The position numbers and the translations under genes were made by a program. This document shows, piece after piece, positions 22,228-55,191 of a stretch of 64,000 nt of DNA (its first letter is position 1; each line of letters starts with the position of its first letter). Source of the stretch: Mesorhizobium sp. B1-1-8 (GTDB lineage: Bacteria; Pseudomonadota; Alphaproteobacteria; Rhizobiales; Rhizobiaceae); contig NZ_CP083957.1 in NCBI RefSeq assembly GCF_006442795.2, positions 248,001 through 312,000 of the forward strand. Reading direction: 5' to 3'. Under the pieces are notes generated by a model. That model was not told where the DNA came from. It searched no databases and was given only the letters and a program-made list of their open reading frames with translations.

Positions 22228-23651
22228 CATTGAGGCGCAAAGCAGACAGTCCGGGTCTGACAGTCGACGCGCTGAGGAATCACACCCCATCACATCGTAG
22301 AGCGCACAACAGCCTTGATGTGTTCTGGCAGGTCGAGCTCGCCGCGCGCCTCGATCTGCAAAGAGATATCGGGCCTTGGCCAAGCGATCGCCTTCCCCGA
22401 CCGCACGATAGGCGCAGATGGCTAGTAGCGCCCCTCCTCCTCTCGGCCAGCCTTGATGTGATCGCAGCCGCGACTGCCTCTTTGGTGGACGGCCTTCCCA
22501 AACGCACCGTGCGCTGCCGTGTGCGCCTCAATCGGAGTTCGCAGGTCGATGGATGGTTGCCGATCACGGCTCATCGGTTCTGTGCCGCGAGCGTTTGCTG
22601 GAACGGTGGCAGCAGCGACTGCGCAACCGGAATCGCAGAGTAAGGCGCGGCGACCAATCCTGGACGTGGTGAACTCTCCTCTTCGCATTACAACAGGCCA
22701 GAGCCATGAACAAAGCTGATGCCTATAGTTCGGGCAAGCTGGGGTTGCGATACGTCCGACTGGACGCGAACGATGGCTCTCTGCCTGCCGACCTGCCGAT
22801 CAGCGGGATGAGGGCTCGGTTGAGGTTGGCCTTTGTCCCCGCCGCAGTAGCAGGAGCCGCTTCGATTCCGAGCTGGCCTCTCGCTACTGCATCGATCACT
22901 CCTCGGAATGTGAGTCTGTCGCGGTGCGCCGCAAGGAAACAAACTCAGCAGATTTCCGTATTGGGGAGTTGCAAATCGCGAAACGGATGCGCCTTGCACT
23001 CGGCTATCTCGGCCGGCTAATCCTGGCAATATCCCTGATGGTCGCGCGGAGTAGAGGCCAGGGAAACTCGGCGTCGCTTTCCGACGGCTGAGCTACCCTA
23101 AGCACGGCATCTAGTTTGGCGGCCACACCGGCAAGGGTAGTGGCTGGCGTTTCTGACAATACCTCAAGCAATTCTTCTGCTCGATCGGCGGCTTCGCGTT
23201 CAGCGCGCAATGCGGAGGAATAGCCAATTTCTTCAGCGGCGGCATCCCAGCGAATCTGGTGGGCCGCCAAGTCGGCTTCGGCCTTAGCGCGGATTGTTGC
23301 GTCGATGGAATCGGCGCCAGGCAATTCACCGATTTCCTTCAGACAATGCAGTGTCAGGCTCTCACCATTGGACTGCAGGATCGTCGCGCGCGGAAAACCG
23401 ACAGTTTCGGCAAGCTTCCGCTCCAGCCGCTGTTGGTCGCGGCACTGCCGCTCGGTCAATTTGAAGGCCTCCTGCCACTCGCGCCATACCGTTACAGCGG
23501 CATCAGCGGATTGGTCCTCATCCAGGATCTTGCGAGCAACCTCGGTTGGCTGCGACCCCACCATTGCATTTGCCGTTCGGGCAGCTACGGTCCTGCCCGT
23601 GACGAGGGGCAAAGTCGTGGTATTGTCGGAATCAGCCATGATCCGAGCTCC
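22228..23651. repeat. 1.4-kb direct repeat, copy 1
   Basis: Matches 43852-45275 base for base at a constant offset of 21624, with no indels noticed and only a few substitutions (a handful in the first 70 bases and one near 22667). It contains the 211-aa minus-strand gene and about 750 bases with no confident gene. Homology ends sharply at GATCCGAGCTCC, 12 bases upstream of that gene's start. No terminal inverted repeats or target duplications were found. Confidence 0.95.
23004..23639 (-). CDS. Repeat-borne hypothetical protein (211 aa), copy 1
   Basis: A 211-aa, mostly helical, acidic protein: MADSDNTTTLPLVTGRTVAA at the start, central Trp/Gln-rich helices (VTVWREWQEAFKLTERQCRD), and an Ala/Glu-rich C-terminal half (LRAEREAADRAEELLEVLSE). 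No known domain, signal or membrane span. Identical in sequence to the product at 44628-45263. It is transcribed away from an XRE regulator about 146 bp upstream on the other strand, an arrangement typical of a controlled effector gene. The start is the last ATG inside the repeat; earlier starts lie in non-repeated sequence. Confidence 0.65.
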   Translation of the reverse strand: MADSDNTTTLPLVTGRTVAARTANAMVGSQPTEVARKILDEDQSADAAVTVWREWQEAFKLTERQCRDQQRLERKLAETVGFPRATILQSNGESLTLHCLKEIGELPGADSIDATIRAKAEADLAAHQIRWDAAAEEIGYSSALRAEREAADRAEELLEVLSETPATTLAGVAAKLDAVLRVAQPSESDAEFPWPLLRATIRDIARISRPR

Positions 23652-23785
23652 CAGAAGCTTAGGCGTGGTCAGGCTAGGCACGGTGCGTCAACACCGAGTC
23701 TAGCCGCACCCCCGGACCAAAGGCCCAAGGGTATCCACTGATACCTTTGGATCATAGCGCAATGATCTAAAGGGATCAATAGAAA

Positions 23786-24019
23786 TTGATAACAGCGGCA
23801 CAGATGCGAGCAGCCCGCGCGTTGATAGGTCTCTCACAAGCGGAGCTTGCCCGCCGCGCTGGCGTTTCTATTCCGACGGTAAAACGCTGTGAGAGTGACA
23901 GTGAGCGGGCCCCCGCCGTGTCCGCTGGAACCCAGGACAAAATCCGCGCTGTTCTTGAGGCTGATGGCGTGGAATTCACGAACGGCAATCATCCGGGCGT
24001 CAGATTGCGGCGACCGTGA
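23786..24019 (+). CDS. XRE-family transcriptional regulator (77 aa)
   Basis: A 77-aa Cro/CI-type helix-turn-helix protein: MRAARALIGLSQAELARRAG then VSIPTVKRCESDS covers the five-helix domain; the end (AVLEADGVEFTNGNHPGVRL) matches the usual short tail of this group. The apparent start is TTG. It is divergent from the repeat-borne 211-aa gene and probably represses it or itself. A related but clearly different regulator occupies the same place beside the second repeat copy. Confidence 0.85.
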   Translation: MITAAQMRAARALIGLSQAELARRAGVSIPTVKRCESDSERAPAVSAGTQDKIRAVLEADGVEFTNGNHPGVRLRRP

Positions 24020-24108
24020 CTGACTGACCAATGTCTGGTTTGCTCGCTGGCTCGGTTGATTTGATTCAGCCTTGCCAAACTGCGGCGACAGAGCGATTTC
24101 ACGCCGCG

Positions 24109-24180
24109 TGGTGTTGTGCTCTACCCGTTCATATCCTGCGTGCGCTGTTTGACCGGATATCAGTAGTAGGTCACGAGCAG
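24109..24180 (+). other. Structured repeat element 1 (hairpin)
   Basis: Begins GGTGTTGTGCTCTACCCGT, then an inverted repeat ATATCC (24131-24136) / GGATAT (24155-24160) around an 18-base loop with GCGTGC. Outer bases TGCTC and GAGCA can also pair. A second element with the same leader but a different stem lies 190 bp downstream. It could be a structured RNA or a recombination site; neither is proven. Confidence 0.4.
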
Positions 24181-24299
24181 GTCACCTCCGAGGTTGCGCA
24201 GCGCCTGTTCGGGCCAACTATCTTCGTATTTGGAGACCGCGGCAAGCCGGTCCTAAGCGCAAATCATTGCGCGCCGCGGCGGTGATTCCAACCTGCTTA

Positions 24300-24362
24300 G
24301 TGTTGTGCTCTACCCGTCCTACCAGGCGTGCACCGTCTGATCGGATGGTAGGGTTAAGCACC
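24300..24362 (+). other. Structured repeat element 2 (hairpin)
   Basis: Shares GTGTTGTGCTCTACCCGT with element 1. Its stem is CCTACCA (24318-24324) / TGGTAGG (24346-24352), different in sequence from element 1 but in the same place, with GCGTGC again in the loop; GTGCT and AAGCAC can form an outer stem. Both arms changed together, as expected for a conserved structure. Confidence 0.4.
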
Positions 24363-24405
24363 GCACCGCTTTCGACCTGCCGCTAGGGAAAGAGGAATGC
24401 TGCTA

Positions 24406-24912
24406 GTTGAGCGCGGCCTAATGGCCCGGCTCAGATATCGGTATAATGCCAGCGGCCAAGCTTTCCTCTTCGAGAATATCAATAACATCACCGACGCTGG
24501 CCCCCGCGTTGGGGTGAGCCCTCGCCAGTTCCTCTGCCTTGGATTTCACATCAAAGGAAGGTTGCGGCCGCTTCTTTGCTGCTGCTACCGCGCCTGCAAT
24601 CTCGACTGCAAGGGTGAGTGCCGGCAGAGGATTTCTCCCGAATGCCTCAGCCTCTACCCCAAATATGGCAGACATTCGGCCAGCCTGACATACTCGGTCG
24701 TCACGGCTTGGGCGGGCTCTAATTTGAAGCTTGCTCGTCACCAGCGCCAAGCTCATGAATCGTTTCCGACCGTTTTCGCTGAAATCCAATCGCGCCAGTG
24801 GGCAGGATGAACATCGACCGGCACCTCGGTGACGGCATGCCTCCATCCAAATTCGGTCCGCTCACACGGAAATACGAGCGAGTGCGCGCCTTCTCCGCCC
24901 AGAACTGCCAGT
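24406..24912. repeat. 0.5-kb direct repeat, copy 1
   Basis: Matches 57172-57678 at a constant offset of 32766 with scattered substitutions. It carries one minus-strand gene of unknown function. The right edge is about 30 bases from the IS3-family element; copy 2 has no IS at that point. Confidence 0.9.
24418..24756 (-). CDS. Repeat-borne hypothetical protein (112 aa), copy 1
   Basis: Reads MSLALVTSKLQIRARPSRDD then MSAIFGVEAEAFGRNPLPAL, LTLAVEIAGAVAAAKKRPQP and a conserved helical end with AELARAHPNAGASVGDVIDI. No known family. No strong ribosome site precedes either candidate start (this one, or the Met of MSAIF 27 codons on; the frame is open further upstream too). Copy 2 at 57184 differs by several amino-acid changes, mostly conservative. 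Confidence 0.45.
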   Translation of the reverse strand: MSLALVTSKLQIRARPSRDDRVCQAGRMSAIFGVEAEAFGRNPLPALTLAVEIAGAVAAAKKRPQPSFDVKSKAEELARAHPNAGASVGDVIDILEEESLAAGIIPISEPGH

Positions 24913-24959
24913 TCCAGCAGGCGCAAAAACGGTGCGCTGACTGACGTTGCCCCCAGGTT

Positions 24960-25890
24960 CTATCCAGTTTTGGCTTCGTTTCCGGCGTGGGTTGTGCCCT
25001 GCTGGGCGGGTGAAGCGACGGTCGCTGGCGCGGAGCTTTTGGCATAGCGCAGCGCGAGCGACCGTCGCGGATTGAAGGTGGTGGCGAACTCGGCCGGTGT
25101 CTGCCACGCGATTTGGGAGTGCGGCCGCGCGGTGTTGTAGTCGGCGCGCCACAGGGCGATGGCTACGCGCGCCTGAGCCAGCGAGGTAAACAGCGTCTCG
25201 TTGAGCAGTTCATCGCGCAGCCGGCCCTTGAAGCTCTCGATGAAGCCATTCTGCATCGGCTTGCCGGGCGCAATGTAATGCCGTTCGACGCGGTTCTGCT
25301 CCGCCCAGGCGAGGATGGCGTTGGAGGTGAACTCGCTGCCATTGTCGCTGGCGATCATCCTCGGCCGGCCGCGCTCGGTGATGAGCCGGTCCAGTTCGCG
25401 GGCAACCCGCATGCCCGAGAGAGACGTATCAACGATGAGTGCCAGGCACTCTCTCGTGCAGTCGTCGACGATGGCCGGGATTCGGAAGCGGCGCCCGTCG
25501 GTGAGTTGGTCCGATACGAAGTCGAGCGACCAGCGCTCGTGTGGCCTCAGCGGCACCAGCATCGGCGCCCTGGTCCCGATCGCCCGCTTGCGGCCGCCAC
25601 GTCGGCGAACGGCGAGCTTCTCCTCCCGATAGAGCCGGAACAGCTTCTTGTGGTTCACGACCAGGCTCTCCCGCCTAAGCATCACGAGAAGACGCCGGTA
25701 GCCGAACCGGCGACGCTCCTGCGCGATCGCCTTCATCCGCTCGCGAACCTCGCGGTCCGTCCGGCCTGCTGGTCTCGTAGCGAACCGTCATACGGCAACA
25801 GCCGATGGCTTTACACGCCCGCCGTTCGCTCATCCCGAAGCCTTCCTTCAGACGAGCGACAGCTTTCCGCTTGGCCGCGGGCGTCACCAT
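24960..25890 (-). pseudogene. IS3-family transposase OrfB (DDE integrase), frameshifted
   Basis: Starts MVTPAAKRKAVARLKEGFG and reads to [10 protein letters not shown], then a one-base insertion in the run GGACGGACC moves the rest to another frame: [20 protein letters not shown] through the rve core. The catalytic acidic residues are present in [18 protein letters not shown] and [14 protein letters not shown]. Without the insertion this would be a normal catalytic subunit, made as an OrfAB fusion by programmed frameshifting in this family. Confidence 0.85.
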
Positions 25891-26150
25891 TTCTTTCCCA
25901 CGAGATCCTTCAACGCGGCATTGTCGAGCATAGCATCGGCCAGAAGCCGCTTCAGCCGCGTGTTCTCGTCCTCCAGCGCCTTCAGTCGCCGAGCCTCGGA
26001 GACATCCATCCCGCCGAAGCGGGCCTTCCAGTTGTAGATCGAAGCATCGCTGACGCCGTGCTTCCGACACAGATCGGCGACCGAAACCCCGGCCTCATGC
26101 TCCTTCAAAATTCCGATGATCTGCTCTTCAGAGAAACGGCTGCGCTTCAT
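25884..26150 (-). CDS. IS3-family transposase OrfA
   Basis: An 88-aa DNA-binding subunit: MKRSRFSEEQIIGILKEHEA, then the helix-turn-helix VADLCRKHGVSDASIYNWKA and a leucine-zipper-like end (LKALEDENTRLKRLLADAML). It ends DLVGKKW, overlapping the orfB start, the region where IS3 elements shift frame to make OrfAB. It binds the terminal inverted repeats in related elements. Confidence 0.9.
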   Translation of the reverse strand: MKRSRFSEEQIIGILKEHEAGVSVADLCRKHGVSDASIYNWKARFGGMDVSEARRLKALEDENTRLKRLLADAMLDNAALKDLVGKKW

Positions 26151-26237
26151 GTCCTGGTCCTCTCGATAGGCCAGAACGAACTTCAAACCGGATTAGATCA
26201 GAGGGGCAAGGTCAATTCGTTGGTACATCGGTACAAG

Positions 26238-26498
26238 TCAGCGGCCGGCCTCTTCCCGCCGCTTGGCGTCTTGATCGTTCAGCCCGCTGACCATCTCGTA
26301 CGCTTGGCCGGCATTGATGCCGACCATGATCTTGTGATCGGACTCGGCGGGCTGGCCGGTGAAGACGTCGAAAAGGGTCCAACTGTCCGGATGGTCCATA
26401 CGAAGCGCGTAGCGGTTTGCCAATTCCGCGTCCTTTCGTTTTCGCCCGCCGCCGATCTGTTCAGGTCTGCAGAATGAAAAATACCGTCGCCAGGACAA
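26238..26498 (-). CDS. Small hypothetical protein (intact paralogue of 17.1-kb remnant)
   Basis: The conserved core is AELANRYALRMDHPDSWTLF then DVFTGQPAESDHKIMVG and INAGQAYEMVSGLNDQDAKR. No assigned domain. With the ATG used here the gene overlaps the upstream membrane-protein gene by 38 bp; a TTG at 26423 (61 aa) preceded by AAAGGA is a credible alternative and matches where homology with the 17.1-kb copy begins. It is co-oriented with that membrane gene, as in the decayed copy. Confidence 0.6.
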   Translation of the reverse strand: MSWRRYFSFCRPEQIGGGRKRKDAELANRYALRMDHPDSWTLFDVFTGQPAESDHKIMVGINAGQAYEMVSGLNDQDAKRREEAGR

Positions 26499-26676
26499 GG
26501 ACTGTCCACAGCACCACGCCGAGCTTCAAAGCCAGGCCCCCGTGCAACGAGAGACCCTCTCGCATACGGGCCGCCAGATTCGTCATATTGCTGGATCTGG
26601 CCGGAGCCGCCACAATGGCGACCGGCGACTTGACCCCAAGCCTGCCGAACACCGGGAGCAGCGTCGGTTCACGCAC
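26461..26676 (-). CDS. Small single-span membrane protein
   Basis: A 71-aa protein: LLPVFGRLGVKSPVAIVAAP then NMTNLAARMREGLSLHGG and a C-terminal membrane helix (LKLGVVLWTVLVLATVFFIL). It is probably tail-anchored in the inner membrane. Related to the degenerate frame at 16934-17059. It lies 24 bp beyond the groEL stop on the same strand, so it may be read through from the chaperonin operon. Confidence 0.6.
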   Translation of the reverse strand: MREPTLLPVFGRLGVKSPVAIVAAPARSSNMTNLAARMREGLSLHGGLALKLGVVLWTVLVLATVFFILQT

Positions 26677-26699
26677 GGCCTTCTCCTGGCGCCAAGGTC

Positions 26700-28376
<1,677 letters not shown>

Positions 28377-28715
28377 TCAGGCGGCCTTCTTGACCGCCCC
28401 GGTCTTGTTGGCGCCGGCCATCTCGCTCTTGTCGATGACGCCCATGATGTCGGCTTCCTTCATGATCAGAAGGTCTTCGCCGTCGATCTTCACCTCGGTT
28501 CCCGACCATTTGCCGAACAGGATGAAGTCGCCGGCCTTGACGTCGAGCGGAACAAGCGCACCGTTTTCGTCGCGAGCGCCCGGGCCGACAGCGATGACCT
28601 CGCCTTCCTGCGGGTTTTCCCTGGCATTGTCGGGAATGATGATGCCGCCCTTGGATTTGGTGTCGCTTTCGGCGCGCCGGATGACGACGCGGTCGTGGAG
28701 TGGCCGGAATTTCAT
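28377..28715 (-). CDS. groES: Co-chaperonin GroES with C-terminal extension
   Basis: A 112-aa Gro[22 protein letters not shown], the mobile loop [19 protein letters not shown] and [20 protein letters not shown] are typical. Canonical proteins end soon after DIMGVI; here about 18 residues ([18 protein letters not shown]) follow, making an unusual basic tail whose role is unknown. It caps the GroEL ring as a heptamer. First gene of the operon, 54 bp downstream of a CIRCE element. Confidence 0.97.
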
Positions 28716-28769
28716 GGGGAACTTCTTTCTGTGGCCGGCATGGACGGCCGCTGCCTGTGTATAGGCGGG

Positions 28770-28796
28770 TTGGCACTCGATAGATAGGAGTGCCAG
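28770..28796 (-). promoter_or_regulatory. CIRCE operator (HrcA binding site)
   Basis: TTGGCACTC-N9-GAGTGCCAG matches the CIRCE consensus TTAGCACTC-N9-GAGTGCTAA with compensating changes that keep most of the dyad. It lies in the groES leader. HrcA binds CIRCE to repress chaperonin genes until heat titrates it; the hrcA gene is not in this window. Confidence 0.9.
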
Positions 28797-29210
28797 AATT
28801 ATTTCTCGCCAAGGGCCAAGAATTCGAGTGAAATAATTCGAGCCGCACGAAATTCATCCGCACTGGTGGAAAACTTTCTGCCGGTTTGAATTTCGCAGGC
28901 GCGCATCTGTTATTGCAAGGGAAAAAATAAAAGGCGTCGCGACCTTGTTTGGAACTCAAATGAGGCGCGTAGGTGAAATTCGTTAATTTGGTCGAGTTGG
29001 CTTTGTGTCAGAGCCCCGCCATTCACCACTGAATTCTCGAAAACGAGTGCATGCGCCGGTCCGGCGCACATTTCGTTCCGTTCGAACCCCTGGAATGACA
29101 TCGACGCTGACCACGGATGTACTGGCAGCGTCGGGCATCATTCCGGTGGTTCGAGTGGGAATGATACGGAAACGCGCAAGGCGCGCGTTTTCCGCTGAAA
29201 GCCGCAACAA
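28797..29210. other. Intergenic region between groES and the small-gene cassette
   Basis: About 414 bases that should contain the groESL promoter on the minus strand and the promoter of the cassette on the plus strand. A plus frame from 29005 is open to the cassette start and ends in an ATGA overlap, but it shows little similarity to the matching region of cassette copy 1, so I do not call it a gene. Confidence 0.4.
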
Positions 29211-29471
29211 ATGACCAGCCGCACCACACCAACTGTCGTTCGCTTCAAGTCGGCGTTTTCGCTGCCCGGCTTTGATGCACCGCAACCACCCGGGGATTAC
29301 CGCGTCGATCATGACGAGGAAGCCCTAGAAGGAGCTTCCCTGATCGCGTGGCGCCGCGTCGCCACCTTCATTCACCTGCCGGCGATCTCCGCAAGCGGTG
29401 CTACGCGGCAGATGGTGCCGATCGAACCGGCATCGCTCAAAGCCGCACTGGAGCAGGACCAGAGACAATGA
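29211..29471 (+). CDS. Cassette copy 2, gene A: hypothetical protein (86 aa)
   Basis: Reads MTSRTTPTVVRFKSAFSLPG then FDAPQPPGDYRVDHDEEALE and FIHLPAISASGATRQMVPIE. No named domain known to me; it looks like a small beta-rich cytosolic protein of the type common in rhizobial accessory regions. The frameshifted twin is at 16138-16391, which supports that this is a real protein family. Its stop overlaps the start of gene B (ATGA). Confidence 0.7.
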   Translation: MTSRTTPTVVRFKSAFSLPGFDAPQPPGDYRVDHDEEALEGASLIAWRRVATFIHLPAISASGATRQMVPIEPASLKAALEQDQRQ

Positions 29472-29836
29472 TGAGAACCACGACGATGATGCAACGCAAC
29501 GCACGCCCGGTCCGCCGCGAAGCCGCAACGCATCTATTTGCCGTCGGACAGGCTGTCCGGCTGAAGGGCGGCTTCGGCATGTTTCCAAAGACTTCGGAAA
29601 TCTACCGGATCACAGCCAGACTCCCGCCGAGGGAAGATTCGGCGCAATACCGCATCCGCAACGACGGCGAACTTCATGAACGGGTGGCGACGCAAGACAG
29701 TCTCGAACCGGTCGCCACATCGCCGGGTGACACCATAACGCTCATCGAAAGGACGTTCGCACATGTCAAAGGGACAGAAACGCTCGAGCCGGGAAATCAG
29801 GAAGCCGAAGCAGGAAAAGGTCCTGCCCAAGCCTAA
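29468..29836 (+). CDS. Cassette copy 2, gene B: hypothetical protein (122 aa)
   Basis: After MMRTTTMMQRNARPVRREAA comes a conserved core HLFAVGQAVRLKGGFGMFPK then SEIYRITARLPPREDSAQYR, RIRNDGELHERV and GDTITLIERTF. The VGQxVRLKGG opening suggests an SH3-like barrel. Gene C starts within its last 25 codons in another frame. The decayed twin at 15835-16141 retains all three blocks in three frames. Function unknown. Confidence 0.7.
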   Translation: MMRTTTMMQRNARPVRREAATHLFAVGQAVRLKGGFGMFPKTSEIYRITARLPPREDSAQYRIRNDGELHERVATQDSLEPVATSPGDTITLIERTFAHVKGTETLEPGNQEAEAGKGPAQA

Positions 29837-29906
29837 AAGCGTGTTCGGCGCCCAGACCAGACTTGCCGCTAACATCAGTACCCCGCGCGGCAAAGGCGAG
29901 AACTGA
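29763..29906 (+). CDS. Cassette copy 2, gene C: small basic protein (47 aa)
   Basis: A very basic 47-aa frame, MSKGQKRSSREIRKPKQEKV, then LPKPKSVFGAQTRLAANIST, overlapping the end of gene B. The same class of Lys-rich mini-protein is common in rhizobia, often near similar genes. RKPKQEK is shared with the remnant at 15704. It ends 13 bases before gene D. Possibly a nucleic-acid or ribosome-associated peptide; no direct evidence. Confidence 0.6.
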   Translation: MSKGQKRSSREIRKPKQEKVLPKPKSVFGAQTRLAANISTPRGKGEN

Positions 29907-29919
29907 CACGGCGAGACGG

Positions 29920-30168
29920 ATGACGATGAAGATCATGATCGAATTCTATCGCACCCGAGAAGCGGACGATGCGCATGCCGTGCTTGGCCGCGAGACGGCG
30001 GAAGCCGCCGACCTCGACGATGCGATCGAAATCGCCAGGCTTTTGGCTGGGACCCTGAACATGCCGCAGCGGCCGGACGCCATGACGATCGCCGATGCGA
30101 ATGGCGCAACGCTCTATTCGGGCGTTCTCGTCGGGAAGGCGATTAATGAGGAACGGCTAACATCATGA
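29920..30168 (+). CDS. Cassette copy 2, gene D: hypothetical protein (82 aa)
   Basis: MTMKIMIEFYRTREADDAHA then DLDDAIEIARLLAGTLNMPQ and IADANGATLYSGVL: an alternating beta-helix-beta pattern of a small alpha/beta protein. Paralogous to the first 70 residues of the gene at 15042-15707. The start is placed 13 bases after gene C; an earlier ATG at 29863 overlaps gene C and lacks homology. It ends in an ATGA overlap with gene E. Function unknown. Confidence 0.7.
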   Translation: MTMKIMIEFYRTREADDAHAVLGRETAEAADLDDAIEIARLLAGTLNMPQRPDAMTIADANGATLYSGVLVGKAINEERLTS

Positions 30169-30577
30169 GTGGCCATAACAACGAAAGCTGTCGGACCCGC
30201 AACGTCGCCGCGCTTGCGGTCTGGGAAATGAGGGCGGCGCGTCCGGGCGCGATTTCTGTGGACCATCAAATGGCCGTCGAGTCGAAGTTGATCGCTCCCT
30301 GGACCGACTTCCACGTTTTCAGCGCGCAACGCCGTCCGCCTCACCGATCATGACGGCTTGCTTCTTGGTCGATGTCGAGGCGCTCGCGAAATCGGATATC
30401 GCCTTGGCCGAGACCGGGGCTGCTGAAACAAGATGCCTTTCAGCATTCGACGCCTTCCTGATGTCCATCCATGATGTTGCTTGCAAAGCCTACTCCCGCA
30501 ACCGTCGCGATTCCTGCACTCTGACCCCGCTGATTTCCGGCAGGCAAGATCCACATGCTGATCCGCTACGGCTATGA
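30165..30577 (+). pseudogene. Cassette copy 2, gene E (frameshifted)
   Basis: MSGHNNESCRTRNVAALAVW then SKLIAPWTDFHVFSA in frame one, NAVRLTDHDGLLLG in a second, and DVEALAKSDIALAETGA then RCLSAFDAFLMSIHDV in a third. Together these make one plausible protein of about 130 residues, also visible as a broken gene at 15092-15463. Both copies in the window are thus interrupted. It ends just before the transglutaminase-like gene. Confidence 0.5.
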
Positions 30578-31682: not shown

Positions 31683-33485
31683 TCAAACGGGAATGCGATC
31701 TGACAGAAAGCGGCGCCAGCCGCCAAATGACGAGATGTCAGAAGCGCCCAGCAAGCCCACGGATTCCACCAGAAAGCCTTTGGCGGTGCTGCCGTCGCCG
31801 AGCTCTATATTGCCAATGCCCAGCGGCGGCGGGATGGCGGCCACAAAGTGGCCGAAAGCGTCGGCAGGTAGCCGCCAGACCTCTACCTCGATCTCAGTGC
31901 CGCCGCTCTCCACACGAACCAGTCCCGGCTTGGGCGTGGCCTGGCCGGCGAGCTGATAAAGCTTGTATGAAGAGGCCGTCCTCGTCGCCCGGCAGAACCG
32001 GGCACCGGCCTGCTTGAGCTGGCCATTGAGCGGCATTCCCGAGAGGTGAGCGCCGACCACCACCAATTCGATCGTGCCGTCTTCGGCCGATGCGCCGACA
32101 GGCTGCGCGCTCGGCTGCCGCCAGCCGGTCGCGCCGAGCGTAAGACCGCTCGCGGCATGGAGATCGCGCGCGACGGACGCCACAAGGCCGTCCAGTCCGG
32201 CGGCCGCAAGCAGCGTCACGCTCATCGGCAGGCCGTCATCGCGCGTGCCGGTCGGCACGGCCATGCCGCACATGTCGAGCAGATTGACGAAATTGGTGTA
32301 GGTGCCGAGCCGGCTGTTGGTGACGACCGGATCGGCAAGTACGGTGTCGACCGTGTAGTGGGTGGGCGCGGTCGGCACGCAGAACAGGTCTACCGAAGCA
32401 ATGACCGGAGCGAGCTTCACCTTGTAGGTCTGCAAGGCGTAGAGGCCGCGGAAGGCGTCCGCCGCCGACAGCTTCCTGGCGCCGCCGATGATCTTGCTCG
32501 TCACCGGATGCATGGCGGCTTCGTTGACGTCCATGAAATCGCGGATCGCGGCGTAGCGTTCGGCCACCCAGGCGCCCTCATAGAGGAGGTTGGCGGTGGC
32601 GTAGAAATCGCCGAACGGGATTTCGACCAGCCGGCAGCCGAGCCGCGACAGCATGGCGAGCGAGGCCTCGAAGCCGGCCTGCATCGCCGCGTCGCCGAAG
32701 AATTTCCGGTCGGCTTTTGCCGGAATGCCGACGCTCAGCACAGGCGGGCGCGCGGCGAGCGGCCGGACGGCGATGTCGCGCGAATAGGGATCGGCCGCAT
32801 CGCGCGCTGCCGCGACGCAGAACACTCCATAGGCGTCGTCGACGGTCAGCGCGAACACCGACACGCAGTCGAGCGTGCGGCAAGCCGGAACGACGCCGCC
32901 CGTCGACAACGCACCGACGGTCGGCTTCAGCCCGACGATGATGTTGAGGCCGGCGGGGATGCGGCCGGAGCCGGCGGTGTCGGTGCCAAGCGCGAAGGAG
33001 ACGATGCCACGCGCCGTCGCCACCGCCGATCCCGAGGAGGAGCCGCCCGGCACCAACTCCGCATCGATGGCGTTGCGCGGGATCGGCCAGGGTGTGCGCA
33101 CACCAACGAGGCCGGTGGCGAACTGGTCGAGATTGGTCTTGCCGACGACCAGCGCGCCGGCGGCCCTGAGCCGCGCCACCACGGTGGCGTCCTTGTCGGG
33201 CCAGTAGGTGTATTCCGCGCAGGCCGCCGTCGTCGGCATGCCGGCGACGTCGATGTTGTCCTTGACGGCGAAGGGAATGCCCCACAGCGGTTTTGCCACC
33301 GGGTCGAACGGGCCGAGCGCTTCGACCGCGGCAAGCAGATCCGCCCTGGCGGCGAGATGGATGAAGATGCCCGGATCGTCAGCTGCCTCGATGCGGGCAT
33401 AAATCGCCGCGATCACATCGCCAACGGCGACGCCACCACGATAGGCCGCGTGCAGGCTCGCTATGTCGAAGTGGACATCACTCAT
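31683..33485 (-). CDS. atzF: Allophanate hydrolase
   Basis: A 600-aa enzyme of the usual AtzF length. The N-terminal amidase-signature domain has Lys75 (PFAVKDNIDVAG), the cis-Ser in PGGSSSGSAVATA (about 149-150) and the nucleophile Ser173 in GTDTAGSGRIPAG. The C-terminal domain (about 460-600, IELVVVGAHLSGMPLNGQL and GFLVESVGL) is the second allophanate hydrolase domain that decarboxylates the intermediate. It converts allophanate to CO2 and ammonia in the cytosol, finishing biuret breakdown begun by BiuH encoded in the same operon. Its start overlaps the cupin gene by 8 bp. Confidence 0.95.
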   Translation of the reverse strand: MSDVHFDIASLHAAYRGGVAVGDVIAAIYARIEAADDPGIFIHLAARADLLAAVEALGPFDPVAKPLWGIPFAVKDNIDVAGMPTTAACAEYTYWPDKDATVVARLRAAGALVVGKTNLDQFATGLVGVRTPWPIPRNAIDAELVPGGSSSGSAVATARGIVSFALGTDTAGSGRIPAGLNIIVGLKPTVGALSTGGVVPACRTLDCVSVFALTVDDAYGVFCVAAARDAADPYSRDIAVRPLAARPPVLSVGIPAKADRKFFGDAAMQAGFEASLAMLSRLGCRLVEIPFGDFYATANLLYEGAWVAERYAAIRDFMDVNEAAMHPVTSKIIGGARKLSAADAFRGLYALQTYKVKLAPVIASVDLFCVPTAPTHYTVDTVLADPVVTNSRLGTYTNFVNLLDMCGMAVPTGTRDDGLPMSVTLLAAAGLDGLVASVARDLHAASGLTLGATGWRQPSAQPVGASAEDGTIELVVVGAHLSGMPLNGQLKQAGARFCRATRTASSYKLYQLAGQATPKPGLVRVESGGTEIEVEVWRLPADAFGHFVAAIPPPLGIGNIELGDGSTAKGFLVESVGLLGASDISSFGGWRRFLSDRIPV

Positions 33486-34492: not shown

Positions 34493-36024
34493 CAGTGATG
34501 TCCCGCCATGTGCTCGCCGATGGTCTGGACACTGGCCTGCGCGATCGGCGTCTCGTAAACCAGCGCACCGTCCGACATGACGAAGATGCGGTCCGAGAGC
34601 GCGAGCAGTTCGTCGAGATCCTCCGACATCAGAAGCACTGCGGCACCGGCATTGCGCGCCTTCATGATGCGAGCGCGGATTTCGGCCACGGCCGAGAAGT
34701 CGAGGCCGAAGCACGGATTGGAGACGATCAGAAGGTCGACCCTGCCGGTGAGCTCGCGGGCAAGCACGGCGCGCTGCACATTGCCGCCCGACAGCGAGGC
34801 GATCGGGGAGGCAAGCGATGCGGTCTTGACCTTGAACTGCTCGACCAGCCTGGCGCTGAATGCCCTGATGGCGCCGGCACTGATCCAGCTCACCGGTTTG
34901 CCGTTGGCGTCGAGGTCGAAGGTGCGGAAAGAAATGTTTTCGGCCACCGTCATTTTCGGCGCGCAGGCATTCTTCAGCGGCTCCTCGGGAATGAGCCGCA
35001 CATTGAGAGCGCGCGCCTTGGCCCGCGTAGCCGCATAGGCGCTGCCGCGCACCATGACTTCGCCGGCCTCGCGGGGGCGCTGCCCGGCCAGCACTTCGAG
35101 CAATTCCTTCTGGCCGTTGCCGGAAACGCCGGCGATGCCGACGATCTCGCCGGAGCGCACGCCGAGATCCTCGATCCGGATCGACTTCAGCCCGGTGCGG
35201 TTCGGCGCCTTCAGCGCCTTAACCTTGAGCACGATCTCGGCGTCCGGCCTGGGCTCGGCGCGGCTGTCGAGGGCCGCGATCGGCTGGTCTCCGATCATCA
35301 TCGCAGCCATGGTTTTGCGGTCGAGGTCGACGACGCGGCCAGTGCCGGTCAGCCTGCCCTTGCGCAGCACGCTGACGTCGTCGGCGAATGCCGTCACCTC
35401 ATGGAATTTGTGCGAGATCATCAGCACGGTCAGGTCGCGAGCCCTGGTCATGCCGCGCACCAGGCCAAGCACTTCCTGCGCCTCGCCGGGGCTGAGCACG
35501 GAGGTCGGCTCGTCCAGCACCAGGAAGGAGCGGCCGAGATAAAGCTGCTTGATGATCTCCAGCTTCTGCTTCTCGCCGGCAGCGAGATCGGCCACTTTGA
35601 CATCGAGCGGCAGTTTGAACGGCATTCGATCCATGAACATTGCAAGCTTGCCGCGCTCCTTGCGCCAGTCGATCACGCCGGGAACCTTCTCACGCGAAAT
35701 GACCAGATTCTCCGCACCGGTGAGCGACGGGACAAGCGTGAAATGCTGGTAGACCATGCCGAGGCCGAGTGCCGAGGCGTCCCTGGGGCTGGCGATCGCC
35801 ACCTCGCGGCCGTCGACGAGGATGTCGCCGGCGGTCGGGTGATAAAAACCCATCATGCATTTGACCAGCGTCGACTTGCCGGCGCCGTTTTCGCCAAGCA
35901 GTGCATGGAACGATCCGGCCGGCACCTTGATGGAGACGTCGCCCAACGCCGTGAAGGCGCCGAAACGCATGGTCATGCCGACGGTCTCGACGCCGACGGC
36001 CTTGTTGCCGATGATGGCGTTCAT
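34492..36024 (-). CDS. ABC transporter ATP-binding protein (BMP/nucleoside type)
   Basis: A 510-aa fused double ATPase. The first domain has Walker [13 protein letters not shown]-loop YQHFT, signature [11 protein letters not shown] and Walker [12 protein letters not shown]. The second has a degenerate Walker A ([13 protein letters not shown]), signature [11 protein letters not shown] and [12 protein letters not shown], where the second-site Walker B Glu is changed (usual VDEPTxGLD), as often seen in this family. It powers the two permeases and binding protein of the operon. A one-base overlap couples it to the downstream hydrolase. Confidence 0.92.
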
Positions 36025-36034: not shown

Positions 36035-36736
36035 TCACGGCAGCTGGGCGACGAAGGACGCCGAGCTCGACACCGCGCCGAAGACGCCGCCCTGCATCTT
36101 GATCATCTTGATCGCGGCGAGATGATTGCCGTGGTCGGTCGCCCCGCAGCAATCCTCCAGCATCACGCATTCGAAGCCGCGGTCGTTGGCCTCGCGCATG
36201 GTGGTGTGCACGCAGACATCGGTGGTGATGCCGGTGAGCACGATGTTTTCGATGCCGCGCTGGTTAAGGATCAGCTCCAGGTCGGTGGCGCAGAACGAGC
36301 CCTTGCCGGGCTTGTCGATGATCGGCTCGCCCTCGGCCGGGTAAAGGTCGGGAATGATGTCCCAGCCCGGCTCGCCGCGCACCAGGATGCGCCCGCAAGG
36401 GCCGGGGTCGCCAATGCCGGCATTGATGCGGCGCGAGCGCCAACGCTTGTTGGCGGGCAGGTCGGCGAGGTCGGGCCGGTGGCCCTCGCGGGTGTGGATG
36501 ATGGCGTAGCCTTTCGCGCGCATGGCCGACAGCACGGACTTGATCGGCTCTATCGGCGCGCGCACCAGCGACAGGTCGTATCCCATATGATCGACGTAGC
36601 CGCCCGGTCCGCAGAAATCGCTCTGCATATCGATGACGATCAACGCCGTGTTGTCGGGGCGAAGTTCGCCATTGTAGGGCCATGGATACGGGTCGGCGTC
36701 GATGTAGCGCCGGGTGATTTCGGCTCTGGCGTCCAT
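36035..36736 (-). CDS. biuH: Biuret amidohydrolase
   Basis: A 233-aa cysteine hydrolase very like Rhizobium leguminosarum BiuH as I recall it: [20 protein letters not shown] at the start, [20 protein letters not shown] and [20 protein letters not shown]. The triad residues fall at Asp36, Lys142 and Cys175, the same numbers as in that enzyme. It cleaves biuret to allophanate and ammonia in the cytosol; AtzF finishes the job. Start supported by GGAG; it lies between permease and ATPase genes with 10-14 bp gaps. Confidence 0.93.
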
Positions 36737-36750
36737 GGCAAAAACTCCAG

Positions 36751-37677
36751 CTATTTGGTGATCGACAATTCGCCCGGCGCACCCGCTAGCGAGCGTGTCG
36801 GCGACGAGGTGGCGATCATGATGATGAGGGTGAGGATGTAGGGGGCGGCGTAGAATAAATAGTAGCCTTGCGTGACGCCGACCGACTGCAGCGCCGGTCC
36901 GAGCGCTCCGGCGCCGCCGAACAGAAGCGCTGACGCAAAGCAGCCGAGCGGATTCCAGCGCGCGAAGATGACCAGCGCCACCGCCATCAGCCCCTGACCG
37001 GACGAGATGCGCTCGGTCCAGCTGCCGGGATAGTAGAGCGACAGATAGGCGCCGCCGATGCCGGCCAGAGCGCCGCCGACGCCGGTGGCGATGAGGCGCA
37101 CTGTGTTCGGGTTGAGGCCCATGGCGCGCGCGGCCTCGGAACTGTCGCCGACGACGCGCACGATGAGGCCGATACGGGTGTTGCGGAAGGCCCACCACAG
37201 GACCAGCGAAAGTGCCGCCCCGATCAGGAACAGGACGTTGACGTCGAGTGCCGCCTGCACCTGCGGAATGTCGGACCAGGCGCCGAAGGGAATGGCCGGA
37301 AGGTTCGGCGCTTTCGGCTTGATGAACGGCTTGCCGAAGAAGAAGGCGAGCCCCGAGCCGAACAGCATCAGCGCAATGCCGATGGCGATGTCGTTGACTT
37401 TCGGGAATTTGCAGATCCAGCCATGGAACAGGCCGAAGCAAAGGCCAGCGGCCCCGGCGGCCAGCAGGCCGAGCCATGGCGAGTTGGTCATGACCGCGAC
37501 TGCATATGCGGTCATGGCGCTGAAGACGAGCGTGCCTTCCAGCCCCAGATTGATGCGGCCGGAGCGCTCGGTGATAGCCTCGCCCAGCGAAACGAAGATG
37601 AAGGGCGTCGACACCCGGATGGCACCGCCGAGGATGGCGAGCGGCACACCCCAGAGGCCGATCCCGGTCGCATCCAT
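36751..37677 (-). CDS. ABC transporter permease (BMP/nucleoside type) 2
   Basis: A 308-aa inner-membrane protein with about eight hydrophobic spans ([20 protein letters not shown], then [18 protein letters not shown]). [15 protein letters not shown] motifs belong to the branched/nucleoside-like BMP transporter permeases. The Met chosen overlaps the previous permease stop as TGATG; an earlier start would overlap by 19 bp. Probable substrate: biuret or related urea oligomers, by context. Confidence 0.9.
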
Positions 37678-40107: not shown

Positions 40108-40226
40108 TTGTTGCCTCGAAAGTAGCCAATTTGACAGGCAGATTAAAATAGAGGCATAGAGGGCACATCCGAGTCGAAAGGCCAACGAGTCGGCCGGCTC
40201 CATGAAGAAGACACGACGGAGGAAAA

Positions 40227-40919: not shown

Positions 40920-41251
40920 AAATTTCCGGACGGTCCGAATCTTAGCAGACGATGTCTGGTGGGCCTTGGCTAGGCGATCGCCCTCCCCAGCGGCAGTATA
41001 GCCGCAGATGACGAGCAGCATCCTCTCCCCTCCCGGCAGGCTCTGGCACAGTCGGCGCTGCCACCGCCTATGTAATGCAGTGCTTTGTCGAACGCCTCCT
41101 GGTTCAGGTCGCCGGCCCTCACGATGTGCGCATGGGCTTTTGGGCCTGTGAGTTCAGTAGGTGCGTGCGACCTGTGCGCGATCTCTGAAACTCAAAGAGA
41201 TGACCCGGGCGCCGCCCTGCGCCCAGGTTGTCTGCATAGTCTATGCGCGGT
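40920..41251. other. Convergent intergenic region with a repeat-derived segment
   Basis: Lies between the converging GntR and hydrolase genes. Its part near 40962-41040 is a diverged relative of a piece of the 1.4-kb repeats; the rest shows nothing. Confidence 0.5.
40962..41040 (-). repeat. Diverged fragment of the 1.4-kb repeat with a conserved mini-frame
   Basis: On the minus strand this reads MLLVICGYTAAGEGDRLAKA. The matching piece of the 1.4-kb repeats (22372-22450 and 43996-44074) reads ALLAICAYRAVGEGDRLAKA in one frame. Several of the differences are third-position, synonymous changes, so this frame seems, or once was, under protein-level selection. No complete gene could be defined at any of the three places. 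Confidence 0.5.
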
Positions 41252-41947
41252 TCAGTTCGTCGCGGCGGCGGCCTTCTCGATGAGGTCGGCGACGGCCTTG
41301 GGATCGGAGACGTAAACGGCATGGCTGCCGGGCACTTCCACGGTCGTCGCGCCGGCCCGGTTGGCCATCTGGCGCTGTGCCGGCGGCGGGATCATGTGGT
41401 CGTCGGTGGCAACCAGGTACCAGCTCGGCTTCACTCTCCAGGCCGGCTTGGTGACCTTGCCTTCGAGCGCTGCCACACCCCACGGAACCTGCGAGTCCGC
41501 CATGAAGGCGGCAAGCGACGGACGCACGTCGGCGGCGAAGGAGGCGGCGAACTTTTCCTTGTCCAGCATCAGGAAGCCGTCGACCGGCGGCAGGATCGGC
41601 GGGACCGGGGCACCGGGAGGCGGGTTGGCGATTAGGGTCGAGACCGACTCGCCGGCATCCGCCGCGAAAGCCGCGATGTAAACCACGGCCGAGACCTTCG
41701 GATCCGTGCCGGCTTCCGACACCACGACGCCACCATAGGAATGGCCGACCAGGATGACGTCGCCCTTGGCTTCGGCAATGGCGCGCTTCGTCACCGCGAC
41801 GTCGTCGGCGAGCGAGGTGGTGGGGTTTTGGGCGATGATGACGTCAAAGCCGTCCTTCTTGAGCTGGTGGTAGAGCCCTTCCCAGCCGGAGCCATCGACG
41901 AAGCCGCCATGCACGAGGACGACAGATTTTGCTGTGTTGTTCGACAT
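41252..41947 (-). CDS. Alpha/beta-fold hydrolase
   Basis: A 231-aa hydrolase of the EstC/pyrethroid-hydrolase-like group: VVLVHGGFVDGSGWEGLYHQ (oxyanion HGG), nucleophile Ser70 in VILVGHSYGGVVVSEAG, a late catalytic His in EVPGSHAVYVSDP, and an acidic residue near WYLVATDDHMIPP. No signal peptide. Substrate unknown, probably a small ester or amide. It is divergent from the winged-helix/TPR gene, which could regulate it. Confidence 0.88.
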   Translation of the reverse strand: MSNNTAKSVVLVHGGFVDGSGWEGLYHQLKKDGFDVIIAQNPTTSLADDVAVTKRAIAEAKGDVILVGHSYGGVVVSEAGTDPKVSAVVYIAAFAADAGESVSTLIANPPPGAPVPPILPPVDGFLMLDKEKFAASFAADVRPSLAAFMADSQVPWGVAALEGKVTKPAWRVKPSWYLVATDDHMIPPPAQRQMANRAGATTVEVPGSHAVYVSDPKAVADLIEKAAAATN

Positions 41948-42135
41948 TTCCAGTTCTCCTTTTCAAAAGCGTTGTTTGCGTTTGGTTGCAGGAGGACTAT
42001 GCGACGGAGCGGCCATGCTCGCTTTGAGGCGGCCTTCAGGACCTCTTGATTTTCCCTTGAGATCGCTTTGATTTTACGTCCACGACGCGGCTACAGTGTT
42101 GGAAACGCCATTTGCGCGATCTGGAGCAAAAAAAA

Positions 42136-43677
42136 TTGCCGTATCATTTCGAGGATTTCGCTTTGGACGGCGATCGGCGCGAACTGCGCCGCGGCAATGA
42201 TTTGATCCCGGTCGAGCCGCAGGTCTTCGACCTGCTGCAATATCTGATCCGCAACCGCGAGCGCGTGGTGAGCAAGGACGACCTTGTCGACGTTGTCTGG
42301 CAGGGCCGCATCGTTTCCGACGCCACGCTGGCCAGCCGCGTCAACGCCGCCCGCAGCGCGCTCGGCGACAGTGGCGAGGAGCAGCGGCTGATCCGCACCA
42401 TCCTGCGCCGAGGGCTCCGCTTCGTCGGCTCGGTGCGCGAGGAAGGCGGCCGCCAGGCGGCGGAGCAGGCGGCGCCCTGCCCCGACATCCCGGCCCGCCC
42501 CTCCATCGCGGTGCTGCCTTTCCAGAATATGAGCGGCGACCCCGAGCAGGATTATTTCGCCGACGGCATGGTCGAGGACATCATCACCGGCCTGTCGCGC
42601 ATCCGCTGGTTGTTCGTAATCGCGCGGAACTCGAGCTTCACCTATAAGGGCCGCGCGGTCGACGTGAAGCAGGTTGGCCGCGAGCTCGGCGTGCGCTACG
42701 TGCTGGAAGGCAGCGTGCGCAAGGTGGGCAGCCGGGTGCGCATCACCGGCCAGTTGATCGATGCCGAGGACGGCAGCCATATCTGGGCCGAACGCTACGA
42801 TCGCGACCTGACCGACGTGTTCGCGCTGCAGGACGAAATCACCATCAGCGTGGTTGCGGCGATCGAACCCAATTTGCGCCGGGCCGAGATCGAGCGCGTC
42901 AAGCGCAAGCGCCCCGACAGCCTCGACGCCTATGACCTGTTGCTGCGCGCCTTGCCCGATGTCTACACCTTCATGCCGCAAGGCGCCGCCAAGGGCATGC
43001 CGCTGCTCGACAAGGCTCTGGCTATAGAACCGAGCTATGCGCTTGCCCACGGTTTCGCCGCCTGGGCGCACCAGACGCTGTTCATCCGCGGCGGCATGCA
43101 AAGCGAGCACCGCGACAAGGCCGCCCGCCATGCGCATGCCGCGATCGAGCACGGCCCGGGCGACGCGATGGCGCTGGCCCTTGCCGGCTTCACCATCGGC
43201 CTTGTCGAGCATGACCGCAGGCTCGCCGACGAGGCGTTCGCGGCGGCTTTGGCGCTGAGCGCCTCCTGTGCCTTCGTCTATGCCTTCGGCTGCGTGCCGG
43301 TGGCCTATGGCGGCGATGCGGCGCGTGCGATCGACTGGTGCGAGCGGGCGATGCGGCTCTCCCCGCTCGACGCCATGAGCTGTGTGCCGCAAGGCATCAT
43401 CGGCTTCAGCAATTTCTTGGCCGGCCGTCACGAGCAGGCCGTAGCCGCGGGCCGCCGCGCCGTGGAGCTCAACCCCGGCTTCAGCATCCTGCATGGCTGG
43501 CTGGCCGCGCCCCTGGCTAGGCTCGGCCGGATCGAGGAGGCAAAGGCGGTGGGCGCGCGGCTGATGGCGCTCGAACCGCATTTTACCATCGGCGGCTGGT
43601 CGGCGGCGGTGGGCATAGCTCCGAGCATTCTAGGCGAAGTTACCGGAGCCATGCGGTTGGCGGGTCTGCGAGGCTAG
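42136..43677 (+). CDS. Winged-helix (OmpR/CadC-like) regulator with TolB-N and TPR domains
   Basis: A 513-aa protein. Residues 1-95 are an OmpR-type winged helix (YHFEDFALDGDRRELRRGND, EPQVFDLLQYLIRNRERVVS, LIRTILRRGLRFVG). Residues about 120-240 form the TolB-N-like domain (IAVLPFQNMSGDPEQDYFAD, GVRYVLEGSVRKVGSRVRIT), followed by TPR helices. No membrane span is seen, so it is a cytosolic DNA-binding relative of CadC. The start is TTG with GGAG nine bases upstream; a TTG eight codons earlier has no ribosome site. It is divergent from the hydrolase gene and followed by copy 2 of the 1.4-kb repeat. Confidence 0.88.
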   Translation: MPYHFEDFALDGDRRELRRGNDLIPVEPQVFDLLQYLIRNRERVVSKDDLVDVVWQGRIVSDATLASRVNAARSALGDSGEEQRLIRTILRRGLRFVGSVREEGGRQAAEQAAPCPDIPARPSIAVLPFQNMSGDPEQDYFADGMVEDIITGLSRIRWLFVIARNSSFTYKGRAVDVKQVGRELGVRYVLEGSVRKVGSRVRITGQLIDAEDGSHIWAERYDRDLTDVFALQDEITISVVAAIEPNLRRAEIERVKRKRPDSLDAYDLLLRALPDVYTFMPQGAAKGMPLLDKALAIEPSYALAHGFAAWAHQTLFIRGGMQSEHRDKAARHAHAAIEHGPGDAMALALAGFTIGLVEHDRRLADEAFAAALALSASCAFVYAFGCVPVAYGGDAARAIDWCERAMRLSPLDAMSCVPQGIIGFSNFLAGRHEQAVAAGRRAVELNPGFSILHGWLAAPLARLGRIEEAKAVGARLMALEPHFTIGGWSAAVGIAPSILGEVTGAMRLAGLRG

Positions 43678-43851
43678 CCGGATAGCCAAGAAGTCCAAGT
43701 CTGGCTTTTTAGCTCACGGCCCGTACGAGAGCGTGCAACCAGTCTTCAGTGTTGGCCAATCAGAGAAAATGCTTGTGAGCACGATAGACCGATAGCTTGC
43801 CACAACTGACGTCTGCTTCCAGTAAGAGGCTAACGCGGCCCGTATGACCGG

Positions 43852-45275
43852 CATTGAGGCGCAAAGCAGACAGTCCGGGTCCGAAAGTCGACGCGCTGGG
43901 AAATCTCACCCCATCACATCGTAGAGCGGACAACAGCCTTGATGTGTTCTGGCAGGTCGAGCTCGCCGCGCGCCTCGATCTGCAAAGAGATATCGGGCCT
44001 TGGCCAAGCGATCGCCTTCCCCGACCGCACGATAGGCGCAGATGGCTAGTAGCGCCCCTCCTCCTCTCGGCCAGCCTTGATGTGATCGCAGCCGCGACTG
44101 CCTCTTTGGTGGACGGCCTTCCCAAACGCACCGTGCGCTGCCGTGTGCGCCTCAATCGGAGTTCGCAGGTCGATGGATGGTTGCCGATCACGGCTCATCG
44201 GTTCTGTGCCGCGAGCGTTTGCTGGAACGGTGGCAGCAGCGACTGCGCAACCGGAATCGCAGAGTAAGGCGCGGCGACCAATCCTGGACATGGTGAACTC
44301 TCCTCTTCGCATTACAACAGGCCAGAGCCATGAACAAAGCTGATGCCTATAGTTCGGGCAAGCTGGGGTTGCGATACGTCCGACTGGACGCGAACGATGG
44401 CTCTCTGCCTGCCGACCTGCCGATCAGCGGGATGAGGGCTCGGTTGAGGTTGGCCTTTGTCCCCGCCGCAGTAGCAGGAGCCGCTTCGATTCCGAGCTGG
44501 CCTCTCGCTACTGCATCGATCACTCCTCGGAATGTGAGTCTGTCGCGGTGCGCCGCAAGGAAACAAACTCAGCAGATTTCCGTATTGGGGAGTTGCAAAT
44601 CGCGAAACGGATGCGCCTTGCACTCGGCTATCTCGGCCGGCTAATCCTGGCAATATCCCTGATGGTCGCGCGGAGTAGAGGCCAGGGAAACTCGGCGTCG
44701 CTTTCCGACGGCTGAGCTACCCTAAGCACGGCATCTAGTTTGGCGGCCACACCGGCAAGGGTAGTGGCTGGCGTTTCTGACAATACCTCAAGCAATTCTT
44801 CTGCTCGATCGGCGGCTTCGCGTTCAGCGCGCAATGCGGAGGAATAGCCAATTTCTTCAGCGGCGGCATCCCAGCGAATCTGGTGGGCCGCCAAGTCGGC
44901 TTCGGCCTTAGCGCGGATTGTTGCGTCGATGGAATCGGCGCCAGGCAATTCACCGATTTCCTTCAGACAATGCAGTGTCAGGCTCTCACCATTGGACTGC
45001 AGGATCGTCGCGCGCGGAAAACCGACAGTTTCGGCAAGCTTCCGCTCCAGCCGCTGTTGGTCGCGGCACTGCCGCTCGGTCAATTTGAAGGCCTCCTGCC
45101 ACTCGCGCCATACCGTTACAGCGGCATCAGCGGATTGGTCCTCATCCAGGATCTTGCGAGCAACCTCGGTTGGCTGCGACCCCACCATTGCATTTGCCGT
45201 TCGGGCAGCTACGGTCCTGCCCGTGACGAGGGGCAAAGTCGTGGTATTGTCGGAATCAGCCATGATCCGAGCTCC
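43852..45275. repeat. 1.4-kb direct repeat, copy 2
   Basis: Near-identical to 22228-23651. The left edge (CATTGAGGCGCAAAGCAGAC) begins 175 bp after a TolB-N/TPR gene, as copy 1 begins 154 bp after another; the right edge (GATCCGAGCTCC) stops between the 211-aa gene and a divergent XRE gene. The flanks differ on both sides. Confidence 0.95.
44628..45263 (-). CDS. Repeat-borne hypothetical protein (211 aa), copy 2
   Basis: Identical in amino-acid sequence to the product of 23004-23639. The frame extends 32 codons further upstream here, but those codons lie outside the repeat and have no counterpart in copy 1, so the shared ATG is preferred. It faces a different XRE regulator about 130 bp upstream. 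Function unknown; helical and acidic. Confidence 0.65.
   Translation of the reverse strand: MADSDNTTTLPLVTGRTVAARTANAMVGSQPTEVARKILDEDQSADAAVTVWREWQEAFKLTERQCRDQQRLERKLAETVGFPRATILQSNGESLTLHCLKEIGELPGADSIDATIRAKAEADLAAHQIRWDAAAEEIGYSSALRAEREAADRAEELLEVLSETPATTLAGVAAKLDAVLRVAQPSESDAEFPWPLLRATIRDIARISRPR

Positions 45276-53659: not shown

Positions 53660-55191
<1,532 letters not shown>

Follow-up and report, generated by a model that had tools for sequence, protein, structure and literature searches.

We analysed a window of 64,000 nucleotides from Mesorhizobium sp. B1-1-8 (contig NZ_CP083957.1, positions 248,001 to 312,000; G000:C2:248001-312000 in our set), in which two near-identical 1.4-kb segments lie as direct repeats on one 494,404-bp contig (C2) of a two-contig genome. 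Both carry the gene for the same protein of 211 amino acids (aa), hereafter the payload, and each ends beside a different small, divergently oriented XRE regulator gene. We interpret each copy as a control head, which would comprise the small XRE gene, its own operator dyads and a hairpin, linked to the payload gene through a conserved stretch over the payload start, hereafter the joint. The features central to this interpretation are as follows.

22228..23651, no strand: repeat copy A (blastn and offset alignment)
43852..45275, no strand: repeat copy B (blastn and offset alignment)
23004..23639, minus strand: payload gene A, 211 aa, of no known family (open reading frame, ORF; family searches)
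44628..45263, minus strand: payload gene B, protein identical to A (ORF and protein comparison)
23786..24019, plus strand: divergent XRE regulator A, 77 aa (ORF; HTH_3 above the Pfam cut-off)
45396..45671, plus strand: divergent XRE regulator B, 91 aa (ORF; HTH_3 above the Pfam cut-off)
23592..23671, minus strand: conserved joint A, covering the Shine-Dalgarno (SD) sequence, the start codon and codons 1-16 (alignment of relatives)
45216..45295, minus strand: conserved joint B (alignment of relatives)
23672..23705, plus strand: hairpin A, which folds better on the plus strand and has a stem unlike that of copy B (folding, covariation)
45300..45339, no strand: hairpin B, with a different stem that folds better on the minus strand (folding)

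The preliminary description of this stretch had reported near-identical 1.4-kb segments at a constant offset of 21,624, and pairwise alignment confirmed them, with 7 mismatches in 1424 positions (22228-23651 versus 43852-45275). Six of the seven fall in 22228-22305, leaving one mismatch in the 1346 positions of 22306-23651. Comparison of the window with itself by blastn extended the copies to 22228-23679 and 43852-45302 (98.97% identity over 1452 columns). As had also been described, the same 211-aa gene is present in both segments, with proteins that are 100% identical, while the XRE genes differ (46% identity between their proteins). On its minus strand, each copy holds one intact gene, the 211-aa gene, followed by two gene remnants, a truncated XRE2 and then a frameshifted member of another family with a Tat-like (twin-arginine) start. 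An assembly artefact is an unlikely source of the repeat because the copies differ by substitutions and a second genome has the same kind of pair, and we are very sure that the repeat and its pairing with XRE genes are real.

What recurs among relatives is the 211-aa gene paired with a small divergent XRE gene. Among named loci (the best 80 of 92 relatives, drawn from Mesorhizobium, Chelativorans, Aurantimonas, Hoeflea, Stappia, Roseibium, Rhizobium and others), the payload gene has a small divergent XRE gene beside it in 64 of 80, three of these being short XRE matches only. The same arrangement was found in 55 of 71 leader-selected loci, one resting on a 16-residue match; these loci were picked by a DNA pattern across codons 1-5, with L233 lacking the leader pattern. 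A divergent gene pair was also present in 25 of 32 further loci from other genera (32 of 35 stretches, three having already been seen; the mis-anchored L258 and L261 are still counted), and on pSymB of S. meliloti the joint is present beside a hypothetical gene that diverges from an HTH gene.

The payload belongs to a family of which 517 proteins were found and 120 listed, and no Pfam family was matched by more than two of 49 members. Searches of Pfam, NCBIfam, PHROG, PADLOC and structures gave no convincing match for the payload, and its AlphaFold2 model, which is mostly helical with a low-confidence N-terminus, had no significant fold match in the structure search. A simple ad hoc rule for a Tat-like start required a twin arginine (RR) and a hydrophobic stretch close to the N-terminus; of 109 distinct full-length relatives, 68 satisfied it, 9 had RR only and 32 were without RR. 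The window payloads have no RR near the N-terminus and so do not resemble Tat substrates. The payload is thus modelled as a helical protein, with a Tat-like start that is found in many relatives and absent from the window copies. Protein matches occurred in 37 of 61 genomes of the genus, with as many as 13 in one genome. The window's own genome has two diverged chromosomal members, each with a divergent XRE gene and an open downstream XRE2, and a fifth, diverged and weakly matching module on the window's own replicon (L234, G000:C2:201200-203400). Payloads appear to decay often, given that 14 of 71 in leader-selected loci were shorter than 100 aa.

XRE type and payload type are largely uncoupled across modules. 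Identity of the payload showed no relationship with identity of the XRE protein (Mantel rho 0.03, p 0.29), compared with a rho of 0.73 between payload halves, in a first set of 52 modules (from 63 head-payload pairs, leaving out one second module, three with short XREs and any for which no start had been picked). Within the same modules, intergenic identity weakly followed the XRE (rho 0.21, p 0.002) and not the payload (rho -0.02). Forty-six pairs of modules combined XREs at least 75% identical with payloads below 60%, 42 showed the converse, and 13 were at least 75% identical in both; in a second, leader-selected set (46 of 71 modules), these classes held 54, 17 and 12 of 1035 pairs. Compared with pairs sharing neither half (150 of 437 sampled), pairs sharing the XRE had more similar DNA as far as about -1 of the payload, with little effect past +24, and pairs sharing the payload grew more alike from about +12 to +24, which places the switch in identity around the payload start codon; the window A-B pair was badly aligned upstream in this comparison (0%). 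Window copy A and L080, for example, were alike in XRE (89%), intergenic DNA (95%) and joint (95%), with payloads at 53%. In L093 (Hoeflea) and L119 (Phyllobacterium), XRE domains were 100% identical and payloads 45% identical, which suggests that the head alone was transferred between genera.

Exchange in the other direction is illustrated by genome G038, in which two payloads 99% identical lie behind XREs 49% identical. The shared tract (1304 bp at 97.4%) starts at -36 of the payload and runs into XRE2, with four mismatches in -10 to +1139. Identity drops from +1154, within the XRE2 gene (open in L237), and is about 77% over +1154 to +1239. A high-identity tract of this kind inside diverged homologous flanks is the pattern expected of gene conversion, and the window pair also shows it, with XREs at 46% on one side and six of the seven mismatches plus a related flank at the other. 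We consider it very probable that heads and payloads have been re-paired by homologous recombination (gene conversion), with shuffling at the joint, and such re-pairing would have placed one payload behind two heads in this window.

The joint, about 80 nucleotides (nt) over the SD sequence, start codon and codons 1-16, is conserved above the remainder of the module. Across 69 loci, D3 was encoded as GAT (68/68), D5 as GAC (68/68) and V13 as GTC (67/67); a start of the form M.DSD was not found in 14 of 84 sequences, and the amino acids of codons 3-5, though not their synonyms, were partly chosen. Base counts over 123 distinct modules (of 136) showed the same preference for particular letters. 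The third base of codon 6 was T in all 123, with a first base of A (100), C (17) or G (6); codon 12 ended in C in 121 of 123 with its other two bases free; and codon 13 ended in C in 123 of 123. Because third bases stay invariant at codons whose amino acid changes, the joint is almost certainly constrained as nucleotides and not as peptide. Searching the 61 genomes of the genus with a 25-base joint pattern (two mismatches or fewer) gave 70 occurrences, spread over 32 genomes, and none when the pattern was read backwards. Beyond the genus, a sequence model of the joint matched in 24 of 151 family genomes and 6 of 199 order genomes, using filters that lose weak matches.

Between the joint and the XRE-proximal dyads lies a hairpin whose stem letters vary yet mostly stay complementary. 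In an alignment of 83 of 117 references (the others were removed by hand as near-duplicates or mis-anchored), its 13 pairs were paired in 87% of cells (shuffled, 70%), and 11 pairs had double changes, with 215 double-change cells versus 68 in shuffled alignments. The covariation score was 0.439, compared with 0.158 when shuffled and at most 0.103 when the alignment was slid. On the payload strand, A.C combinations numbered 94 (shuffled 153) and G.U combinations 18 (shuffled 89), and the antisense strand was the more stable in 71 of 83 hairpins (mean -24.2 versus -19.9 kcal/mol). In other genera of the family, the additional loci favoured the antisense strand in 23 cases and the payload strand in 7, with one equal (n = 31). 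This combination of A.C/G.U bias and strand preference fits a structured transcript towards the XRE gene better than a symmetric DNA operator, and we regard the hairpin as probably, though far from certainly, a structured RNA on the XRE strand. There was no Rfam match at gathering score in the window, and at E values up to 5 the region 22000-24200 gave just three sub-threshold microRNA matches (best E 0.084).

Promoter-like sites and dyads lie around the two payload starts.

23599..23626, plus strand: putative promoter towards XRE A, GTGACG-N16-TATTGT, opposite payload codons 5-14
45223..45250, plus strand: putative promoter towards XRE B, same letters as A
23751..23779, minus strand: payload promoter-like site A, TTGATC-N17-TATGAT (promoter scan)
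45371..45400, plus strand: promoter-like site at the start of XRE B, TGGACC-N18-TATGAT (promoter scan)
23763..23778, no strand: dyad TGATCCCTTTAGATCA, common to XRE cluster 1 (alignment within the cluster)
23739..23754, no strand: dyad TGATCCAAAGGTATCA, common to XRE cluster 1 (alignment within the cluster)

XRE-proximal DNA is common to modules of one XRE cluster, and in copy A the promoter-like site towards the payload falls in the dyads. Read on the XRE-ward strand, the invariant cores of the joint look like -35 and -10 boxes. The antisense-strand pattern TGACG-N16-TATnGT was present in 113 of 123 modules and in 16 (strict) or 24 (loose) of the 32 further loci, and its variable letter falls at a weakly conserved place of the -10 box. 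That a promoter towards the XRE gene lies inside the payload seems to us somewhat less likely than not. If it does, the opposed -10 boxes of copy A would be about 125 bp apart, and the XRE leader would be antisense to the payload start.

We propose that the XRE protein would bind dyads overlapping the payload promoter and repress the payload. The XRE gene would also be transcribed from the promoter opposite payload codons 5-14, and its structured leader of about 150 nt would run antisense across the start codon and the ribosome site of the payload. With the two promoters facing each other, the arrangement would work as an either/or switch, and any payload would bring the promoter needed by the XRE gene of its new head. 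On balance we lean, by a little, towards two exchangeable halves that meet in the joint, are re-paired by gene conversion and form an either/or antisense switch. The fuller claim, an exchangeable switch family in which the repressor promoter and the start of the antisense leader are written in the first 14 codons of the payload, is a tentative one that may well not hold.

Several observations weigh against such a switch. The promoter pattern was derived from the same 123 sequences it then fits, the promoter scan lists it in neither window copy, and the promoter-like site directly at XRE B speaks against the need for a promoter in the joint. Joint similarity tracks the payload (rho 0.42) more than the XRE (rho 0.08), so the putative XRE promoter would move with the payload and not with the XRE gene, and the joint folds no better than shuffles (z -1.52 to 1.62, eight sequences). 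For the hairpin, two of five measures (pairs changed and pair types) were also attained in 22 and 107 of 500 shuffles, copy B folds better on the payload strand, and strand-biased mutation could mimic the A.C/G.U bias. With regard to shuffling, the second, leader-selected set retains a weak coupling of XRE and payload (rho 0.19, p 0.002, versus 0.67 for payload halves), and the two sets share some genomes, the second also containing the window copies.

Other explanations account for parts of these data. The joint could be a translational control element on the payload mRNA, bound by a trans-acting RNA or protein, with the antisense signal as a by-product. It extends over the SD sequence, the start and codons 1-14; the SD region is paired by RNAalifold, a hairpin at the start codon is paired in 98.5% of cells, and the inner helices show slight covariation (11 double-change cells versus 1.0 shuffled). 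However, payload-strand folding was no better than in shuffles, and the upstream hairpin that covaries is in most cases more stable on the opposite strand, so we consider this explanation unlikely. A slightly smaller chance attaches to the hairpin being a DNA dyad bound by XRE, with half-sites that covary with repressor specificity. Symmetric operators covary too, and hairpins become more alike as XREs do (rho 0.16; 0.20 for the operator), a further point against the RNA interpretation, but neither the excess of A.C over G.U nor the strand preference would be expected of such a dyad, and XRE cluster 10 largely keeps its XRE-proximal dyad while the hairpin stem changes.

Concerted evolution, in which the joint is conserved merely as the place where paralogues recombine and has no function of its own, would be consistent with frequent shuffling and with switch points in the joint. 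We think it improbable, since homogenisation alone would not yield fixed third bases beside variable first and second ones, and other genera carry the joint as well. We give similarly little weight to a toxin-antitoxin system or another kind of conflict module in which XRE would act as antitoxin or repressor. The small XRE partner, the patchy, multicopy distribution and the short payloads (14 of 71 below 100 aa) are what such a module might show, but the genes are divergent and do not form one operon as in type II systems, and searches of Pfam, NCBIfam, PHROG, PADLOC and structures gave no convincing match to a toxin family or fold. Least probable by far is a transposed 1.4-kb mobile unit, even with two near-identical copies, as the flanks are homologous but diverged and no recombinase gene was seen among the ORFs inside the repeat. 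The segment also carries the truncated XRE2 gene and the frameshifted remnant, so it is likewise no compact mobile cassette. The exchangeable switch remains our preferred reading of the module, and the genes and remnants towards its TPR side are the following.

20122..22074, plus strand: TPR gene with a cyclase domain, apparently incidental (ORF; Pfam; relatives' flanks)
42112..43677, plus strand: TPR gene with a Trans_reg_C domain, apparently incidental (ORF; Pfam; relatives' flanks)
22688..23029, minus strand: XRE2 remnant, truncated, copy A; open in L003, L004 and L237 (ORFs and relatives)
44312..44653, minus strand: XRE2 remnant, copy B (ORFs and relatives)
22290..22688, minus strand: remnant, with a frameshift, of a second family with a Tat-like start; L046 and L051 have open frames (relatives)

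The repeat copies begin 154 and 175 bp after the TPR genes (ends at 22074 and 43677), which agrees with the earlier estimate of about 150-175 bp, and the two genes differ in type as had been stated. The preliminary description saw in this a gene-converted module with interchangeable sensor and XRE ends, and expected both neighbours to recur beside the 211-aa gene. The exchangeable segment and the XRE end stand, with XRE recurring as given above, but the sensor end is not supported, as a TPR/TolB-type gene was found in the flanks of just 3 of 80 named loci (using a profile built from the window's two TPR genes on fetched flanks of at most 8 kb per side, often less). The TPR genes look incidental to the module. 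The DNA on the TPR side of the two loci is nonetheless related (80% over 75 positions, 33 of these within the repeat) and may have supplied homology for exchange at that end. The second small family has an RR-hydrophobic start and is represented by L046 2483-2932 (149 aa, no Pfam match) and L051 2460-2777 (105 aa), and its frameshifted remnant is present in both window repeats. Because both copies share the remnants, the copying event probably came after their decay.

The 21.6 kb between the repeat copies hold a GroEL gene (26700-28334) as well as genes of allophanate-hydrolase and isochorismatase type (31683-33485, 36035-37477), and their deletion through the 1.4-kb direct repeats is plausible. 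A second direct repeat (24406-24912 and 57172-57678; 507 bp, 96.5%) overlaps, in its first copy, a 142-aa ORF without a Pfam match, and an rve (integrase-core) transposase gene is located on the minus strand at 24960-25736, about 0.9 kb past the XRE gene of copy A. The window also contains inverted paralogous stretches (15075-17213 and 26314-30543, several pieces at 72-78%), a 30-bp perfect palindrome at 46480-46509 and a 44-bp inverted repeat (93%; 35866-35909 and 53793-53836).

If the proposed switch is real, this would be a regulated family that swaps both repressor specificity and cargo and keeps its control, because the control sequence is embedded in the coding start of the cargo. A single conserved stretch would combine the coding start with a promoter on the opposite strand, an antisense RNA and the recombination joint, and repressor specificities and payloads could be re-paired across Rhizobiales without losing control. 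The analysis would also document a covarying structure that has no Rfam match in the window and offer a testable mode of control for a multicopy payload family.

Individual aspects of this arrangement resemble known systems. Gene conversion between paralogues leaves a high-identity tract inside diverged homologous flanks, as seen here, but in the modules of two genomes one end of the tract falls within the same joint. In the immunity-region mosaics of phages, repressor and operator are exchanged as one block before other genes, whereas here payloads would be exchanged too, at a joint inside the coding start. At pR-pL of phage 186, a repressor gene and its target are read from opposed promoters, which is also what we propose for this module; the module is not known to be phage, and its neighbours were not searched for phage genes. 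The scbA-scbR pair has convergent, overlapping transcription and was modelled as a bistable switch via antisense RNA (PMC3134472). The module would share such overlapping transcription, but it has no signalling enzyme and its proteins are unrelated, and shuffling is not mentioned in the scbA-scbR abstract. For the excludon of Listeria, an antisense RNA of remarkable length that extends over neighbouring genes is described (PMC4179725). The likeness lies in a divergent gene pair in which one gene's transcript would run antisense to its partner and so create an either/or switch. The module would differ in the shortness of its antisense stretch, about 150 nt, and in combining a covarying hairpin with an exchangeable payload.

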